A DNA stretch of 33,786 nucleotides from positions 1 through 33,786 of the forward strand of contig JAFMJG010000014.1 of assembly GCA_017853605.1 (NCBI GenBank), read 5' to 3'. The notes below the pieces were generated by a model, which was not told where the DNA came from, made no database searches, and saw nothing but the letters and a program-made list of their open reading frames with translations. How positions within the stretch are numbered: the stretch's first letter is position 1; each line of letters begins with the position of its first letter. Source of the stretch: a bacterium. Lineage in GTDB: Bacteria > Bdellovibrionota_C > UBA2361 > OMII01. The position numbers and the translations under genes were made by a program. Below are positions 23,698 through 30,267 of the stretch, piece by piece.

Positions 23698-23758
23698 GCT
23701 GCCCTGCCCGACGCCACACCTTGCCGCGCAGGCGCCGTGCTAGCTAGTGAGAAAAACC

Positions 23759-24058
23759 ATGACGAGAAAATCCCCCCTCCTGCTCCTTGCCTTCCTGGCT
23801 ATATCCCTCCTCACCGGGTGCCTCTACTCCAATACGCGGGTGCCTCTCGATGATGATCTCTGGCGGACCGAGCTTGGAAAAAAGGTTGGGGTCGCATCGA
23901 ACTACTCGATTCTCTGGCTCGTTGCCTGGGGTGATGCTGGCGTCAAGAAGGCAGCCGAGAACGGCGGCCTCACAGTCGTCAACCACATGGACGTTGGGGT
24001 CGAGAGCTACATCTTCGGCGCCTACATTCGGCGTGACACGATCGTCTACGGCGACTGA
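23759..24058 (+). CDS. TRL-family lipoprotein
   Basis: A 99-residue lipoprotein: a basic start, a hydrophobic stretch and a good lipobox (LTGC, Cys21). The mature part matches the small TRL family: GVASNYSILWLVAWGDAGVKKAAENGG, then a VVNHMDVGVESYIFG block and a RDTIVYGD end. The family's function is unknown; its members are short secreted or lipid-anchored proteins, often in tandem copies. A GTG at 23747 is in frame four codons upstream, but the ATG gives the more normal signal. It is followed after 24 bases by a related gene, so the two are likely co-transcribed. Confidence 0.8.
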   Translation: MTRKSPLLLLAFLAISLLTGCLYSNTRVPLDDDLWRTELGKKVGVASNYSILWLVAWGDAGVKKAAENGGLTVVNHMDVGVESYIFGAYIRRDTIVYGD

Positions 24059-24082
24059 GCAGCAAGTTCGAGTGAGCACGCA

Positions 24083-24412
24083 ATGCGCAGCACCCTTGCA
24101 CTTCTAGCTCTCTGCTGCTCCCTCGCGGGCTGCAGCCTCATCTCGCGGGGGCTGCTGTACACCGACACCACACAGCCCCTCTGCTCCGACCTGCGCGGGA
24201 CTATTGTTGGGGACCGCGCTGCCATCGGGAGCTCAAAAAAAGTGGAGATACCTGTGACCAGGGTTGACTTCTCGGCGGAGTGGGATTCGCGAGCCATCGG
24301 GGACATCGCCAAGGCTCACGGCATGAGCGCGATCTACACCTGCGACGCGCGCCGGCAGTCGTACGTGCTCGGCATCTGGCGGAAAGATTCGGTCATCCTC
24401 TACGGCGAGTAA
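24083..24412 (+). CDS. TRL-like lipoprotein, diverged paralog
   Basis: A 109-residue lipoprotein with a clear signal and lipobox (LAGC, Cys17). Its C-terminal half (SRAIGDIAKAHGMSAIYTCD, SYVLGIWRKDSVILYGE) follows the same pattern as the preceding TRL protein (DAGVKKAAENGG, SYIFGAYIRRDTIVYGD), so it seems to be a diverged tandem duplicate. It carries two extra Cys (PLCSD and YTCDA) that the first copy lacks and that could form a disulphide. The function is unknown. Confidence 0.72.
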   Translation: MRSTLALLALCCSLAGCSLISRGLLYTDTTQPLCSDLRGTIVGDRAAIGSSKKVEIPVTRVDFSAEWDSRAIGDIAKAHGMSAIYTCDARRQSYVLGIWRKDSVILYGE

Positions 24413-25330: not shown

Positions 25331-25891
25331 TCAGGGCTCTGCCGCGATAAGCGACTCGATGATTCGGCGAATCCGTGCAAGGCGGCCCCTTGTCGTGCTG
25401 GCCGGAATTCCCTGCTTCTCCGCTATCTCTCTGCTGTTTAGCCCTGCCACCCTGAGGTGGGCGGTCTCTGTGAGGCTGGGCGAAAGGCGCGCGAAGGCTT
25501 GCTCCTGAAACTCCTGCTCCAACAGCGCCGCCCCAGCTTCCTCGCTGCGGCCAGCGAGAGCCTTCCAAGCCTTCGGGTTGTCCTCAAGGGCAGGGAGCGG
25601 AACTGCCGAGAATCTCCGTGAGGAACGAAAGGAGTCGCGCGCGGTGTTAATCGCTATGCGAGCTATCCAGCGTTCCGCCCTGCACGCCGTGTTGTATTGG
25701 CCGAGACAAGACCACACCTTGACCACAGCATCCTGAACCACGGCATCGAGGTCAAAGGCCTGTAATCCGGGATAGACACTGCCAAGCACTATTCGACAAT
25801 GCTTGTAGACAAGGGGGAGAGCCTGCTCAAAGAGGCCCCTTGCCCCTTCAGGCTTGGCAGAGGCGCGGGCCCCCCTTAGGAGGTCCGTCAT
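25331..25891 (-). CDS. ECF-type RNA polymerase sigma factor
   Basis: A 186-residue sigma70-family factor of the extracytoplasmic-function type. Region 2 is seen as LDAVVQDAVVKVWSCLGQYN followed by AERWIARIAINTARDSFRSSRR (core binding and -10 recognition), and region 4 as ARLSPSLTETAHLRVAGLNSREIAEKQG with PASTTRGRLARIRRII (the -35 reading helix-turn-helix). ATG 25891 is preferred because GAGAGGGG lies seven to eight bases upstream; ATG 25921 and 25978 are in frame. I see no anti-sigma membrane protein next to it; the downstream partners are a small HTH protein and an unknown protein. The signal it responds to is unknown. The promoter lies in 25892-26100 on this strand; no classical ECF GAAC box was found. 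Confidence 0.88.
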   Translation of the reverse strand: MTDLLRGARASAKPEGARGLFEQALPLVYKHCRIVLGSVYPGLQAFDLDAVVQDAVVKVWSCLGQYNTACRAERWIARIAINTARDSFRSSRRFSAVPLPALEDNPKAWKALAGRSEEAGAALLEQEFQEQAFARLSPSLTETAHLRVAGLNSREIAEKQGIPASTTRGRLARIRRIIESLIAAEP

Positions 25892-26066
25892 AGAAGGCCC
25901 CTCTCTGCTCGCCACCGGCATCGTCAGGGCCCCCAAGGGGCCTCTCTCCTCACGCGTTTGTTTTTTGGTGCTCTGCACCGTAACACGGTACCAATCAGGC
26001 TCTTCTTACACCATCTTCGCGCTGTAAGGTGGTGACCAAAAACACCCAGTCCGGGCTGCTTAAATT

Positions 26067-26084
26067 GCCCCCTCAAACGGGGGC
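26067..26084. other. Perfect hairpin in the sigma / carbonic anhydrase intergenic region
   Basis: GCCCCC and GGGGGC flank a six-base loop. It lies between two divergent genes, about 175 bases upstream of the sigma-factor ATG. It may be a regulatory site; no T run follows on either strand. Confidence 0.3.
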
Positions 26085-26257
26085 ACCCTTCCGGCAAAAA
26101 ACACGGGTAAACAAGAGATGCCACCGAATCGCCACCTCGCGGCGTACTAGGGATGGGGCCAAAAACTCATTACCACTATAAGTGCATTATTTACATAGGG
26201 TTAGCTGATTGAGCCGGCTCCTATTGTTGTTTTTATTCAACGAGCCGATAGCTAATC

Positions 26258-26288
26258 TTGAAATTCCATTCATACATGCAGATATACT
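26258..26288 (+). promoter_or_regulatory. AT-rich promoter region of the carbonic anhydrase operon
   Basis: A markedly AT-rich stretch (about 26160-26315) precedes the operon. Within it TTGAAA (26258-26263) and TATACT (26283-26288) are possible -35/-10 boxes, but the 19-base spacer is long. GGAGG at 26312-26316 is the ribosome site. I could not pick a clean ArsR-type inverted repeat. Confidence 0.4.
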
Positions 26289-26321
26289 AATACTTAAATT
26301 GAAATCTCTTTGGAGGACAAT

Positions 26322-26972
26322 ATGAAAACGCTAGTCGAGGGTCTTCGCAGGTTTTCAAGTGATGTATTCCCCAACCAGAAGCCCCTCTTTGAAGAGCTCT
26401 CGCGTGGACAAAAGCCGCACACGCTCTTCATCACCTGCTCCGACTCTCGCATCGATCCGAACCTAGTGACGCAGACCGCCCCCGGGGAGATATTTGTGGT
26501 GCGCAATGCCGGCAATATTGTGCCCCCCTTCGGCGCCTCCCGTGGCGGCGAGGAGGCCTCTATTGAGTTCGCTATCGAAGCCCTGCAGGTGTCGAACATC
26601 GTAGTGTGCGGCCACTCTCAATGCGGCGCCATGAACGCCCTCATGGAGCCTGAGAAGGTGTCATCCCTGCCCTCCGTCTCTCGCTGGCTCGAGCATGCCA
26701 GCGCTACCCGGCGTAGGCTCCTCTCCAGCACTTCAAGCCCGTCTCCCAAGCTGTCACCAGCCGAGGAGAACGTTCTCGTTCAGGCCGAAAACCTCCGCAC
26801 GCATCCAGCTGTTTCAGCAGCCCTGCGGCGCGGTGTAGTTACCATTTACGGCTGGATGTACCATTTTGAGGAGGGCATAGTGACGGTCTACGACCCTTCG
26901 CGTGGAGTATTCGTTTCATCCAGCGACGTTCGAGATCGAGCCCTGACATCGCCCCAATCACTAGCCCTGTAG
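26322..26972 (+). CDS. Beta-class carbonic anhydrase
   Basis: A 216-residue zinc enzyme that interconverts CO2 and bicarbonate. The active-site residues are all present: Cys39 with Asp41 and Arg43 in CSDSRIDP, and His98 and Cys101 in GHSQCGAM; Cys39, His98 and Cys101 bind zinc and Asp41-Arg43 is the catalytic dyad. RNAGNIVPPFG and GVVTIYGWMYHFEEGIV complete the family signature. No signal peptide, so it is cytoplasmic. ATG 26322 has GGAGG six bases upstream; it is preferred over the TTG at 26310. The ArsR gene follows after seven bases and a bestrophin overlaps that gene, so the three form one transcript. Function is firm. Confidence 0.95.
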   Translation: MKTLVEGLRRFSSDVFPNQKPLFEELSRGQKPHTLFITCSDSRIDPNLVTQTAPGEIFVVRNAGNIVPPFGASRGGEEASIEFAIEALQVSNIVVCGHSQCGAMNALMEPEKVSSLPSVSRWLEHASATRRRLLSSTSSPSPKLSPAEENVLVQAENLRTHPAVSAALRRGVVTIYGWMYHFEEGIVTVYDPSRGVFVSSSDVRDRALTSPQSLAL

Positions 26973-26979
26973 GAGACCT

Positions 26980-27348
26980 ATGCCGCAACGACTCTTGGTA
27001 GCACAGCAGCTCGCATCGATCCTGGCAGTCATCGCGCACCCGCACCGTATTAGGCTCATTGAAGAGCTAGGCAGTGGAGAGCTCGATGTGCAGGGGATTA
27101 CCGAGGCGCTCGGACTCGCACAGTCGAGCGTATCCCAGCACCTCGCCCAGCTGCGGGCAAAAGGGATCGTGTGCTCGAGGCGGGAGGGACATCACGTATT
27201 TTACAAGCTGCGTGAGCCGTGGCTGGCGCGCTGGCTCCTCGACGGTTTCAGGCTCCTTGAACTGCAGGGACAAGACTCCGCCCAGCTTATGGCAGCCGCA
27301 CAGGTTGCACGAAAGCTGTGGGTAGGCGGAGAGGAGAAGACGAAATGA
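26980..27348 (+). CDS. ArsR-family transcriptional regulator
   Basis: A 122-residue winged-helix repressor-type protein: AVIAHPHRIRLIEEL, the recognition helix region GLAQSSVSQHLAQLRAKGIV and the wing SRREGHHVFYKL. In the position of the arsenic-sensing ELCVCDL box it has ELDVQGI, so the classical Cys metal site is absent. The only Cys is Cys65, so it is unlikely to be an As/Sb sensor of the usual kind. AGGAGA precedes the ATG. Lying between carbonic anhydrase and bestrophin, overlapping the latter by four bases, it probably controls this operon, sensing an unknown signal (pH, CO2/bicarbonate, redox or other). Confidence 0.88.
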   Translation: MPQRLLVAQQLASILAVIAHPHRIRLIEELGSGELDVQGITEALGLAQSSVSQHLAQLRAKGIVCSRREGHHVFYKLREPWLARWLLDGFRLLELQGQDSAQLMAAAQVARKLWVGGEEKTK

Positions 27349-28322
27349 TCACGAAAGTTTTTGCGCCGAGGGTATCCGTAGCACCGAACCGGGAGGAGCA
27401 TGAAGGTTTCCTCCAGAACGCGCTGGAGTGGCATGGTTCGGTCTCACCGAAGATTCTGCCTCGGGTCCTGGTTACGCTCCTGTATGGGACCGTAGTCACT
27501 GCCGTGCTCCCTCACTTCTCTCACCTAACTCTTGAGATGACCCCTTTTGAGTTCTCAGGCTTTGCGCTGGGCGTGTTGCTCGTGTTCCGCACCAACGCGG
27601 GATATGACCGGTGGTGGGAAGCCCGAAAGCTGTGGGGGAGCATCGTCAACCAGTCTCGCAACCTAGCCGCGCAGGGGTGCGGCTACGCCCATGAGTCTCA
27701 TGGTTGGCACCACAGCTTTCTCAGCCTGGTAGCCGCTTTTCCGCACGTCATCAAGAAGTCCCTCCGTGGGGAGTCTGACGTGGCCGACCTTTCAGCGCTG
27801 CTGACGGACGCACAGCGCCGAGAGCTCGCTGCCGCCCCGCATATGCCGTCTTGGATCAGCGCAGAGATCATTAAGCTGATAGATATTGCCCGGCAGGATT
27901 CCTTGATCGACGGCTTCGCGTTTCAGCGAATTGACCGTGAGCGCGCCCTAATCTTGGACGCGACCGGAGCATGCGAGAGGATTCTCAAAACCCCGATGCC
28001 TCTCATCTTCGCCATTAAGGCCCGCAGGTTTATCCTGATCTTCCTGCTTCTGCTGCCGTTCGCCCTGGTGGACCGAATCGGGTGGATAACCCCCCTGGTC
28101 TCCACCCTCGTGGGCTATGCCCTCTTCTCACTCGACCAGATCGGGCTTGAGCTCCAAAATCCCTTCTCAAAGCGTAATTTGAGCCACCTTCCCCTTGATG
28201 AGGTGTGCGCCACCATCCAATCGAACGTGCTAGCGCTAGAGGACCAGTTTCGTAAGCACCGCTCCGCAAGCGCCGAGCCTCTCACGGCCCTGGGCAACGA
28301 CTCGCTCACTAAATCCCGCTAA
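27345..28322 (+). CDS. Bestrophin-family anion channel
   Basis: A 325-residue membrane protein of the bestrophin/YneE (UPF0187) family, which forms pentameric ion channels. Hydrophobic helices near residues 40-58 and 68-82 are followed by the family's hallmark FRTNAGYDRWWEARKLWGSI with NQSRNLA; two further helices (FILIFLLLLPFALVDRIGWITPLVSTLVGYALF) are followed by DQIGLELQNPF, also typical. Eukaryotic members conduct chloride and bicarbonate, and algal ones feed bicarbonate to the carbon-concentrating system; some bacterial members are cation-selective. The ATG overlaps the ArsR stop (ATGA), so expression is coupled. Given the linked carbonic anhydrase, bicarbonate is a plausible ion, but the sequence does not prove selectivity. 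Confidence 0.9.
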   Translation: MITKVFAPRVSVAPNREEHEGFLQNALEWHGSVSPKILPRVLVTLLYGTVVTAVLPHFSHLTLEMTPFEFSGFALGVLLVFRTNAGYDRWWEARKLWGSIVNQSRNLAAQGCGYAHESHGWHHSFLSLVAAFPHVIKKSLRGESDVADLSALLTDAQRRELAAAPHMPSWISAEIIKLIDIARQDSLIDGFAFQRIDRERALILDATGACERILKTPMPLIFAIKARRFILIFLLLLPFALVDRIGWITPLVSTLVGYALFSLDQIGLELQNPFSKRNLSHLPLDEVCATIQSNVLALEDQFRKHRSASAEPLTALGNDSLTKSR

Positions 28323-28346
28323 GCGGATCCTGCAGCTCGCTTGAAG

Positions 28347-30101
28347 CTACGGCGAGGTGATAGTCGTTGAACGGACCCCAAACTCGTCCTCGGCATAGCA
28401 GAGGAGCCCCTGGGGAACCACACGGTTGAACATCTCGTACGCTCCGCTGGCGGCTGTTCGGGCCGAACCCTTGTACTCGCCGGCGCACACTACATCCACG
28501 AACAGCGGCGTCACCGGCATGCCTAGCACGTTCATCGCCACACCACTAAAGCGGGTGTACCGCCCAACCTTTGCGGCGGAAACCGAGACTGCGTACGGAA
28601 TCGGCGTCGGGGTAGGCGTGGCCCGCGGTGTGGGGGTCGCTGTCGGTGTAGGGGTCGGAGTGCTCGTCGGAGTGGGGGTGAAGGTGGGGGTTGCCGTCAC
28701 ACTGGGAGTCGGGGTCGGGGTCGGAGTCGGAGTCGCAGTCGGCGTTGGAAGCGTCCCGCCAGCCGCAAGGACCGCCCGGAAGAAGTTGGCTCGCCCTGAC
28801 GAGACGACCTTGCCGCTCATCGAGGCCGGCCTGTATGCGGTGTTGATCAGTATGTTCTTGATCTGTGTGTACGTGAGTGCAGGGTTGACTGAGCGCATCA
28901 CCGCCACAATCCCCGCGATGTGCGGGGTTGCCATAGAGGTGCCGCTCGCAGTCGCATAGCCGCCGTTAAGAGACGTGCTGTAGATGCCCTCCCCCGGCGC
29001 CGCGATATCGACCGTGGTCGCCCCGTAGTTAGACCACGAGGTAATCGTGTCTGAGGCATCGCTGGCCGCAACTGCGATAACGTTGTCTGAAGGAGATCCG
29101 GCAGGGTAGAAGGGCGTGACGTCGTTGTTGCTGCCCTCGTTTCCGGCAGCGGCAACGATCACCACATCGTTAAGCCGTGCCTCGACGATCGCATTCTCGA
29201 CTGCGTCTGACTGGCCTGACCCGAGCGAGAGGTTAATGACTTTTGCCCCGCGCGAAACCGCGTATTGGATACCCAAAGCAAGGTCCGCCACAGATCCGGT
29301 GCCGTTAGGCCCCATGATTCGGACCCCCAGGAGCGACACGTTCCACGCCATGCCCGTAACGCCAACGCCGTTGTTCCCCACTGCCCCGATCGTCCCGGCA
29401 CAGTGCGTCCCGTGAAAAAACTCGTCGTTCGGATCGCCATCCCTGCTGTAAAAGTCGTAGCCGTAGTAGTCGTCCACGTAGCCGTTGCCATCGTCATCGA
29501 CCCCATTGCCGTATATCTCGCCGTTGTTGACGAGCATGTTTGCGGCGAGATCCGGATGAGTCCTCTCAATCCCTGTGTCGACGACCGCAACCGTCACGCT
29601 CTTGCTGCCGGTTGACATGTCCCACGACACAGGGGCGCCTATCAGGCGCGGCCCCCACAACCTGTCAAAGGCTGGGTCATTTGGGTACCTGACTGCCTTG
29701 ACCACCTTGTTCGCCTCGCACGTCATTGACGCGCCAGGGTTGCTCGCTATCACCTGCTTGCAGTACTCGGCTATCAGCGCCGAGTCCACCTTTGCGGTTG
29801 CCCGCCTTTTGGCCGCTGGAGCGGCGGAGTATGAAAGCACACGCACCTTGCTCGATGGGCTGCCCGAGCGCACCGCAAGGCCCGCTGGACTCTTAAGAGT
29901 TGAGAGCGGCGCTGTTCTCGTTGCGCGCGGCAGGACCGTGCCGGGGTTGACCGAGACAACGATCTCCTCTCCCTTGAATACCTCAACGAGAGGCCCGGCG
30001 AGGGCCGCGTTAAACGGCACGAGGGCTGCGGACGCTGCCGCCACAGAAATGATGAGGCGCGAGAGGCGAAATGTGTTGGAACAAGCTGCATGAGTTTTCA
30101 T
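28347..30101 (-). CDS. Secreted subtilisin-like serine protease (S8) with Pro-Thr linker
   Basis: A 584-residue exported protease. The N-terminus has a Sec signal (cut probably after NAALA, residue 35), then a propeptide-like region to about residue 135. The S8 domain (about 140-445) has the full triad: Asp175 in VVDTGIERTHPDL, His230 in HGTHCAGTIGA and Ser389 in GTSMATPHIAG, with the oxyanion Asn321 in AAAGNEG. An acidic GNGVDDDGNGYVDD stretch may bind calcium. Residues 452-501 are a Pro-Thr linker, and the last about 80 residues form a beta-rich domain (possibly carboxypeptidase-regulatory-like) that may bind a surface. ATG 30101 follows AGGA; ATG 30110 is three codons upstream. Its end is 24 bases from the convergent bestrophin stop. 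Confidence 0.92.
   Translation of the reverse strand: MKTHAACSNTFRLSRLIISVAAASAALVPFNAALAGPLVEVFKGEEIVVSVNPGTVLPRATRTAPLSTLKSPAGLAVRSGSPSSKVRVLSYSAAPAAKRRATAKVDSALIAEYCKQVIASNPGASMTCEANKVVKAVRYPNDPAFDRLWGPRLIGAPVSWDMSTGSKSVTVAVVDTGIERTHPDLAANMLVNNGEIYGNGVDDDGNGYVDDYYGYDFYSRDGDPNDEFFHGTHCAGTIGAVGNNGVGVTGMAWNVSLLGVRIMGPNGTGSVADLALGIQYAVSRGAKVINLSLGSGQSDAVENAIVEARLNDVVIVAAAGNEGSNNDVTPFYPAGSPSDNVIAVAASDASDTITSWSNYGATTVDIAAPGEGIYSTSLNGGYATASGTSMATPHIAGIVAVMRSVNPALTYTQIKNILINTAYRPASMSGKVVSSGRANFFRAVLAAGGTLPTPTATPTPTPTPTPSVTATPTFTPTPTSTPTPTPTATPTPRATPTPTPIPYAVSVSAAKVGRYTRFSGVAMNVLGMPVTPLFVDVVCAGEYKGSARTAASGAYEMFNRVVPQGLLCYAEDEFGVRSTTITSP
28599..28748 (-). repeat. Tandem Pro-Thr codon repeat inside the S8 protease
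   Basis: About 50 codons of imperfect Pro-Thr repeats with Ala, Ser, Phe, Val and Arg interruptions. It reads on the plus strand as a GT/GC-rich tract. Such linkers are flexible, often glycosylated, and prone to length variation by slippage. Confidence 0.85.
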
Positions 30102-30267
30102 GCGGCGCATCCTAGTCAGAAATCAGCTGACCTGCCCACAGGCTTGGGCGAATTGGGCATGCCAGCAGAAAGCCGCTCGAAACGCCTAAAAACGCAGCGT
30201 GGCAAGAGGATTATCAGCGCCCGAAAGTCCGATGACGAAACGATCTCTGATGCATTTTCTGACTCCT

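Follow-up and report, generated by a model that had tools for sequence, protein, structure and literature searches.

A carbonic anhydrase, an ArsR-type regulator and a bestrophin form a probable autoregulated inorganic-carbon operon in a bacterium of the Bdellovibrionota_C lineage

Introduction

Why are a beta-carbonic anhydrase (CA), an ArsR-type regulator and a bestrophin encoded in one bacterial operon, and which signal would such a regulator follow? The question is raised by a stretch of 33,786 nucleotides of a Bdellovibrionota_C genome (hereafter the window). Known bestrophins are pentamers. Their physiological role is still called unknown in PMC4893618, where those of bacteria are described as Na+ channels. 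In the review PMC8496536 the one characterised bacterial bestrophin is KpBest of Klebsiella, a Na+ channel with the neck I62-I66-F70, in which the substitutions I66F or I62R shift the preference to Cl-. In algae, growth at low CO2 requires the bestrophin-like BST1-3, which have been proposed to deliver HCO3- (PMC6708349). The joining of beta-CAs to anion transporters is known from SulP-CA fusions (Felce and Saier 2004, cited in PMC6458275 and PMC2621215) and from can2-sulP of Acidithiobacillus ferrooxidans, a CA-SulP operon whose transcript level drops as CO2 rises (PMC6458275). No paper on an ArsR-CA-bestrophin operon was found in the open-licence literature. From the operon analysed here, the little-understood bacterial bestrophins probably help to keep bicarbonate or pH in balance.

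Organisation of the operon

The features of the locus are the following:

26160 to 26321, forward strand: AT-rich leader and promoter region, the most AT-rich 162 bp of the window
26273 to 26294, no strand assigned: predicted ArsR operator TACATGCAGATATACTAATACT, an imperfect palindrome and the top match in the window for PWMs built from foreign loci
26312 to 26317, forward strand: Shine-Dalgarno-like GGAGGA ahead of the CA ATG, seen in the sequence
26322 to 26972, forward strand: beta-carbonic anhydrase, 216 aa (Pro_CA, 2.3e-46)
26980 to 27348, forward strand: ArsR/SmtB-fold regulator of a Cys-poor family, 122 aa (HTH_5, 8e-11)
27345 to 28322, forward strand: bestrophin of the RTNxGY (ArsR-CA-operon) clade, 325 aa (Bestrophin_2, PF25539, 6.7e-77)

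All three genes are complete and lie on the forward strand in the order CA, ArsR, bestrophin. The CA gene extends from its ATG at 26322 to a stop at 26970-26972, exactly 7 bases before the ArsR ATG at 26980, and the ArsR stop (27346-27348) overlaps the bestrophin ATG at 27345 as ATGA. The ORF coordinates thus reproduce exactly the layout that had been described in the original prediction. Its remark that the leader is unlike the rest of the window also holds: the G+C content is 34% in the leader and 62.7% in the whole window, and in a sliding count of 33,624 windows of 162 bp only 10 are equally AT-rich, every one starting within 26160-26169. No sigma-70 promoter was found at a strict consensus threshold in 25900-28500, and a scan of the whole window at the gathering threshold gave no Rfam element, in the leader or elsewhere. 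At the Shine-Dalgarno region of the CA gene, TTGGAGGA is also kept in a congener.

This congener (G002, loci L068/L076) is the one genome, among the 29 of the window's order searched, that carries the trio in matching order, with identities to the window of 76% for CA, 68% for ArsR and 69% for the bestrophin. The presence of the trio in a second genome of the genus indicates that the arrangement in the window is not due to chance. An ABC transporter gene lies downstream of the ArsR orthologue in 7 of 11 congeners, and two of these loci, when viewed more widely, contain HlyD-like and outer-membrane efflux genes further on (Pfam-confirmed in one). ArsR-SulP-CA operons headed by the same ArsR family occur in G026 and G021, two genomes that belong to the order but to other families, and the CA of G026 is the top CA match of the order outside the genus.

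The regulator and its family

The regulator scores 78.5 bits against the NCBIfam model HTH_metalloreg (cut-off 55), its AlphaFold model is a winged-helix fold (mean pLDDT 84.5), and SqrR, SmtB, HlyU and NolR are among its nearest solved folds in a fold search. It has a single, unconserved Cys, C65, and consequently lacks the arsenic CxC box, as had been noted at the outset. Cys is absent from 72 of the 85 members of the family, and there is no His in the helix at residues 81-96 of the window protein; the known metal and thiol sites are therefore missing. Metal, arsenic or thiol sensing was ruled out on the grounds that the ligands are not conserved across the family, and the redox state, one of the signals originally suggested, is argued against as far as thiols are concerned. 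Compared with ArsR/SmtB regulators such as SmtB, SqrR, BigR, NolR and HlyU, the window protein likewise combines a winged helix with a predicted AT-rich palindromic operator; it differs from them in having neither a conserved Cys nor the alpha-5 His metal site, in the two Trp residues (W85 and W114) that are invariant in all 85 family members, and in the ties of its family to CA/anion-transporter or exporter operons. Sensing of CO2 or pH by ArsR is a guess, which this exporter context weakens.

The ArsR alignment was scanned over 84,980 species genomes and the best 80 of 224 relatives were examined, their partner genes being called by tblastn with reference proteins. A CA lies within 1.2 kb of arsR in 38 of these 80 loci, a fraction that describes the nearest relatives and not a frequency over all bacteria, and two further loci hold a CA fragment. 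Eight of the 38 also have a bestrophin, 15 a SulP gene, 2 are flagged with both and 13 have CA alone; in one locus (L115) ArsR, CA, bestrophin and SulP follow in a row. Among the remaining partners are an ABC exporter within 1.8 kb (22 loci, one of which, L124, also carries SulP) and SulP only (2 loci), and 18 loci have none of these genes in this count. The phyla represented include Planctomycetota, Pseudomonadota, Melainabacteria, Acidobacteriota, Myxococcota and Armatimonadota. None of 17 more distant ArsR control loci has a CA within about 1.5 kb. On the ArsR tree the family occupies one side of a 97-supported branch separating it from the controls, and the starred branches give at least four separate origins for the CA and bestrophin pairing, on a tree whose inner forks are weak owing to the few alignment columns. 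A lack of conserved linkage had been named beforehand as the refuting result; linkage was found, in G002 for the whole trio and in several other phyla for CA beside arsR, in some loci together with a bestrophin. The anion or bicarbonate theme of the original prediction gains from the fact that SulP or bestrophin occupies the same operon slot in relatives.

A predicted operator in the leader

Expectation-maximisation was used to look for a palindrome within 130 bases 5' of arsR, the input being 41 foreign loci with CA and/or SulP beside that gene, none of them from the window's genus. The palindrome obtained was tATATTCAAAtaTTTGAATATa, with a log-likelihood of 425 as against 52-65 in shuffled sets, and the top site of this model in the 33.8-kb window is 26273-26294, which scores 13.5 bits (runner-up 7.4) and ends 27 bases ahead of the CA ATG. 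The same palindrome emerges from each of three separate training sets (Planctomycetota-plus-Melainabacteria CA loci, Pseudomonadota CA loci, and exporter loci), and the optimum in the window is 26273 every time. As models from three foreign sets all peak at this site, the reading of the locus as an autoregulated enzyme-plus-channel unit is well supported. Given that the leader is AT-rich, it was also shuffled as an extra control: 22 of 5000 shuffled window leaders reached the operator score, as did 44 of 5000 for the congener. In seven exporter loci of the genus, each shuffled 1000 times, the number was 0 or 1. The site of the window is of a weaker kind, most ArsR-CA loci having scores of 18-29 bits.

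With a degenerate pattern, 26273-26294 is the only site in the genome without mismatch, but this pattern had been drawn to fit that very site. Elsewhere in the genome it has only 3-mismatch matches, and inspection by eye of seven of them (L157-L160, L162-L164) revealed nothing related. The operator is absent from the other bestrophin gene of the genome, from its two other CA genes and from its three SulP genes, which marks the window operon as a specially regulated set. Where a promoter could be recognised in Planctomycetota ArsR-CA loci, the predicted operator either overlaps the -10 element or starts 10-12 nt after it, a placement that would suit a repressor. The top-scoring sites of G026 and G021 are located between arsR and sulP. 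An ABC gene 7 kb away from arsR also has operator-like sites (G023; L071:14323-14360), which suggests an action in trans.

A palindromic operator is accordingly predicted at the operon of ArsR itself, and the proposal of autoregulation through the AT-rich leader is sustained by a site derived from models of foreign loci. The Cys-poor ArsR, the beta-CA and the distinct-clade bestrophin form, as judged from sequence, a packed unit behind a palindrome common to ArsR-CA loci of other phyla. Tight packing, conserved linkage and the shared predicted operator speak for one regulated unit, as originally supposed.

The carbonic anhydrase

The zinc ligands C39, H98 and C101 and the D41/R43 dyad are all present, so that the claim of a beta-CA with all active-site residues stands. 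The protein is a beta-carbonic anhydrase by domain and active-site residues, and CO2 hydration is its predicted activity. Its nearest solved chain is the carbonic anhydrase 5swc (E 4e-61), which we take to be the cyanobacterial carboxysomal CcaA. Two more beta-CA genes are carried by the genome; they lie in tandem (G000:C62:10422-11735) and have about 30% identity to the window CA.

The bestrophin

The bestrophin model has a mean pLDDT of 75.4. KpBest is its best fold match (TM 0.85-0.89 on the target), and the 50 Foldseek matches listed are all bacterial bestrophin chains. A hydrophobic neck is present as F-V-F at KpBest positions 62/66/70, which is neither the IIF of KpBest nor the IFF of eukaryotes; this distinct neck and the RTNxGY motif mark the ArsR-CA-linked bestrophins. 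These form one clade with support 100/100 against KpBest, the genome's own paralogue, which falls outside it, and other bestrophins; its members come from the window, L076, Planctomycetota, Obscuribacterales and one Legionella. The window protein therefore shares the Pfam family and fold of KpBest (PDB 4wd7/4wd8) but belongs to another clade.

Since the linked bestrophins had been collected through ArsR, 392 Planctomycetota genomes were searched with the bestrophin alignment itself as an ArsR-independent check. Most of the bestrophins found with this clade alignment do not adjoin a CA. The use of the phylogeny as proof of bicarbonate transport was rejected, because linkage was the sampling criterion and the direct search finds close relatives without CA. 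One Planctomycetota locus that lacks an ArsR match (L198:2-1261 and 1492-2379) holds a SulP-CA fusion ORF with a bestrophin behind it on the same strand, and two others (L202:592-2475 and L214:1384-3280) have SulP-Usp-bestrophin runs. These three loci indicate that bestrophins are partly linked to inorganic-carbon genes even where the sampling did not go through ArsR. A universal-stress-protein-like gene was observed directly 5' of the bestrophin in L192, L204-L206, L202 and L214 (Pfam-confirmed in L202 only). In L096:6132-6892 the bestrophin match consists of two adjoining pieces in different frames, from a frameshift or a sequencing error.

Function of the operon and alternative explanations

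The window operon is a variant of the known module of CA plus anion transporter. Like can2-sulP of Acidithiobacillus and the SulP-CA fusions, it joins a beta-CA to a putative anion transporter, and the same ArsR family stands at the head of ArsR-SulP-CA operons elsewhere in the window's order; in contrast to those modules, it contains no SulP gene, a bestrophin stands in SulP's place and the gene order is CA-ArsR-bestrophin. Chlamydomonas BST1-3 with CAH3 offer a further parallel, a bestrophin together with a carbonic anhydrase acting on bicarbonate, as the window pair would; that system is eukaryotic and thylakoid, CAH3 is a lumen enzyme, and it serves Rubisco, which was not found in the window genome.

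On balance, the locus is probably an autoregulated inorganic-carbon operon. An ArsR dimer would sit on the operator at the promoter and repress transcription until a signal released it; the CA would bring cytoplasmic CO2 and HCO3- into equilibrium, and the bestrophin would pass HCO3- across the inner membrane, in the slot of the SulP transporter of the sister operons. Bicarbonate conduction is plausible by virtue of this exchange with SulP. Across an inside-negative membrane, a passive anion channel would mostly release HCO3- while H+ is kept inside, and the operon of this bacterium, whose genome gave no Rubisco match, would for this reason most likely serve to balance CO2/bicarbonate and pH and not to fix carbon. 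In a bolder form, possible but doubtful, the Cys-poor ArsR family of several phyla would sense CO2/bicarbonate or pH directly, without metal or thiol, and would control through one operator a CA with an interchangeable SulP or distinct-clade bestrophin; the bestrophins of this clade would then be the first in bacteria whose physiological role is that of a bicarbonate channel.

The presence of the same ArsR family and operator at exporter operons, which the original prediction had not anticipated, means that the signal need not be inorganic carbon. It might concern the envelope, surface growth or a small molecule, the CA-channel and ABC/HlyD/OEP exporter operons being two branches of one regulon kind and the CA being included because a change of lifestyle alters CO2 or pH. 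We regard this explanation as possible, though doubtful. The ArsR orthologue before an ABC gene in those seven congeners, the ABC gene adjoining arsR in many Acidobacteriota, the recovery of the same palindrome from exporter loci alone and the sites in G023 so distant from arsR are in its favour, as is the occurrence among the nearest folds of HlyU, which has the ArsR fold and is named an activator. The operon that HlyU controls codes for an exported toxin. Against it, no other single partner is as common as CA (38 of 80), and the recurrence of CA as two unlike beta-CA types with two unrelated transporters suggests that inorganic carbon is what unites the CA branch. A rather unlikely alternative is that the bestrophin passes cations (Na+) as its best fold match KpBest does through a hydrophobic neck (PMC8496536), the operon serving pH or Na+ balance with protons supplied by CA; the middle neck residue of the window protein is indeed Val and not Phe, whereas the separate fully supported clade, the different neck, the RTNxGY motif and the replacement or accompaniment of SulP anion transporters by the linked bestrophins argue against it.

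A carbon-concentrating mechanism feeding autotrophic CO2 fixation is very improbable, despite the relationship of the CA to 5swc and the use of CA plus bestrophin in the algal mechanism (PMC6708349). The 96.6%-complete genome has no match to PF00016, the Rubisco large subunit and the only fixation-pathway marker covered, which largely refutes a Calvin-cycle mechanism and argues against an algal-style mechanism for Rubisco of the kind mentioned in the original prediction. Finally, the genome is metagenome-assembled and consists of 220 contigs, and the genes could in principle be chance neighbours or the product of an assembly join; the probability of this is negligible, as a second, independent genome repeats the order and overlaps and other phyla have the same partners, a conservation that refutes it.

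The autoregulated inorganic-carbon reading makes the ArsR family a candidate inorganic-carbon regulator in bacteria without Rubisco. The role of bestrophins becomes testable in bench strains through a clade that travels with CA, occurs in place of SulP or alongside it, and has a defined operator in common.

Neighbouring genes

Two small adjacent genes with lipoprotein-like starts lie at 23747-24412 on the forward strand; the first is TRL-like (PF13146) and the second has no Pfam match. An ECF-type sigma factor gene (25331-25978, reverse strand) points away from the operon, and the congener has a different gene before CA. Convergent with the bestrophin gene is a subtilase gene with a TPTP-rich linker (28347-30110, reverse strand).
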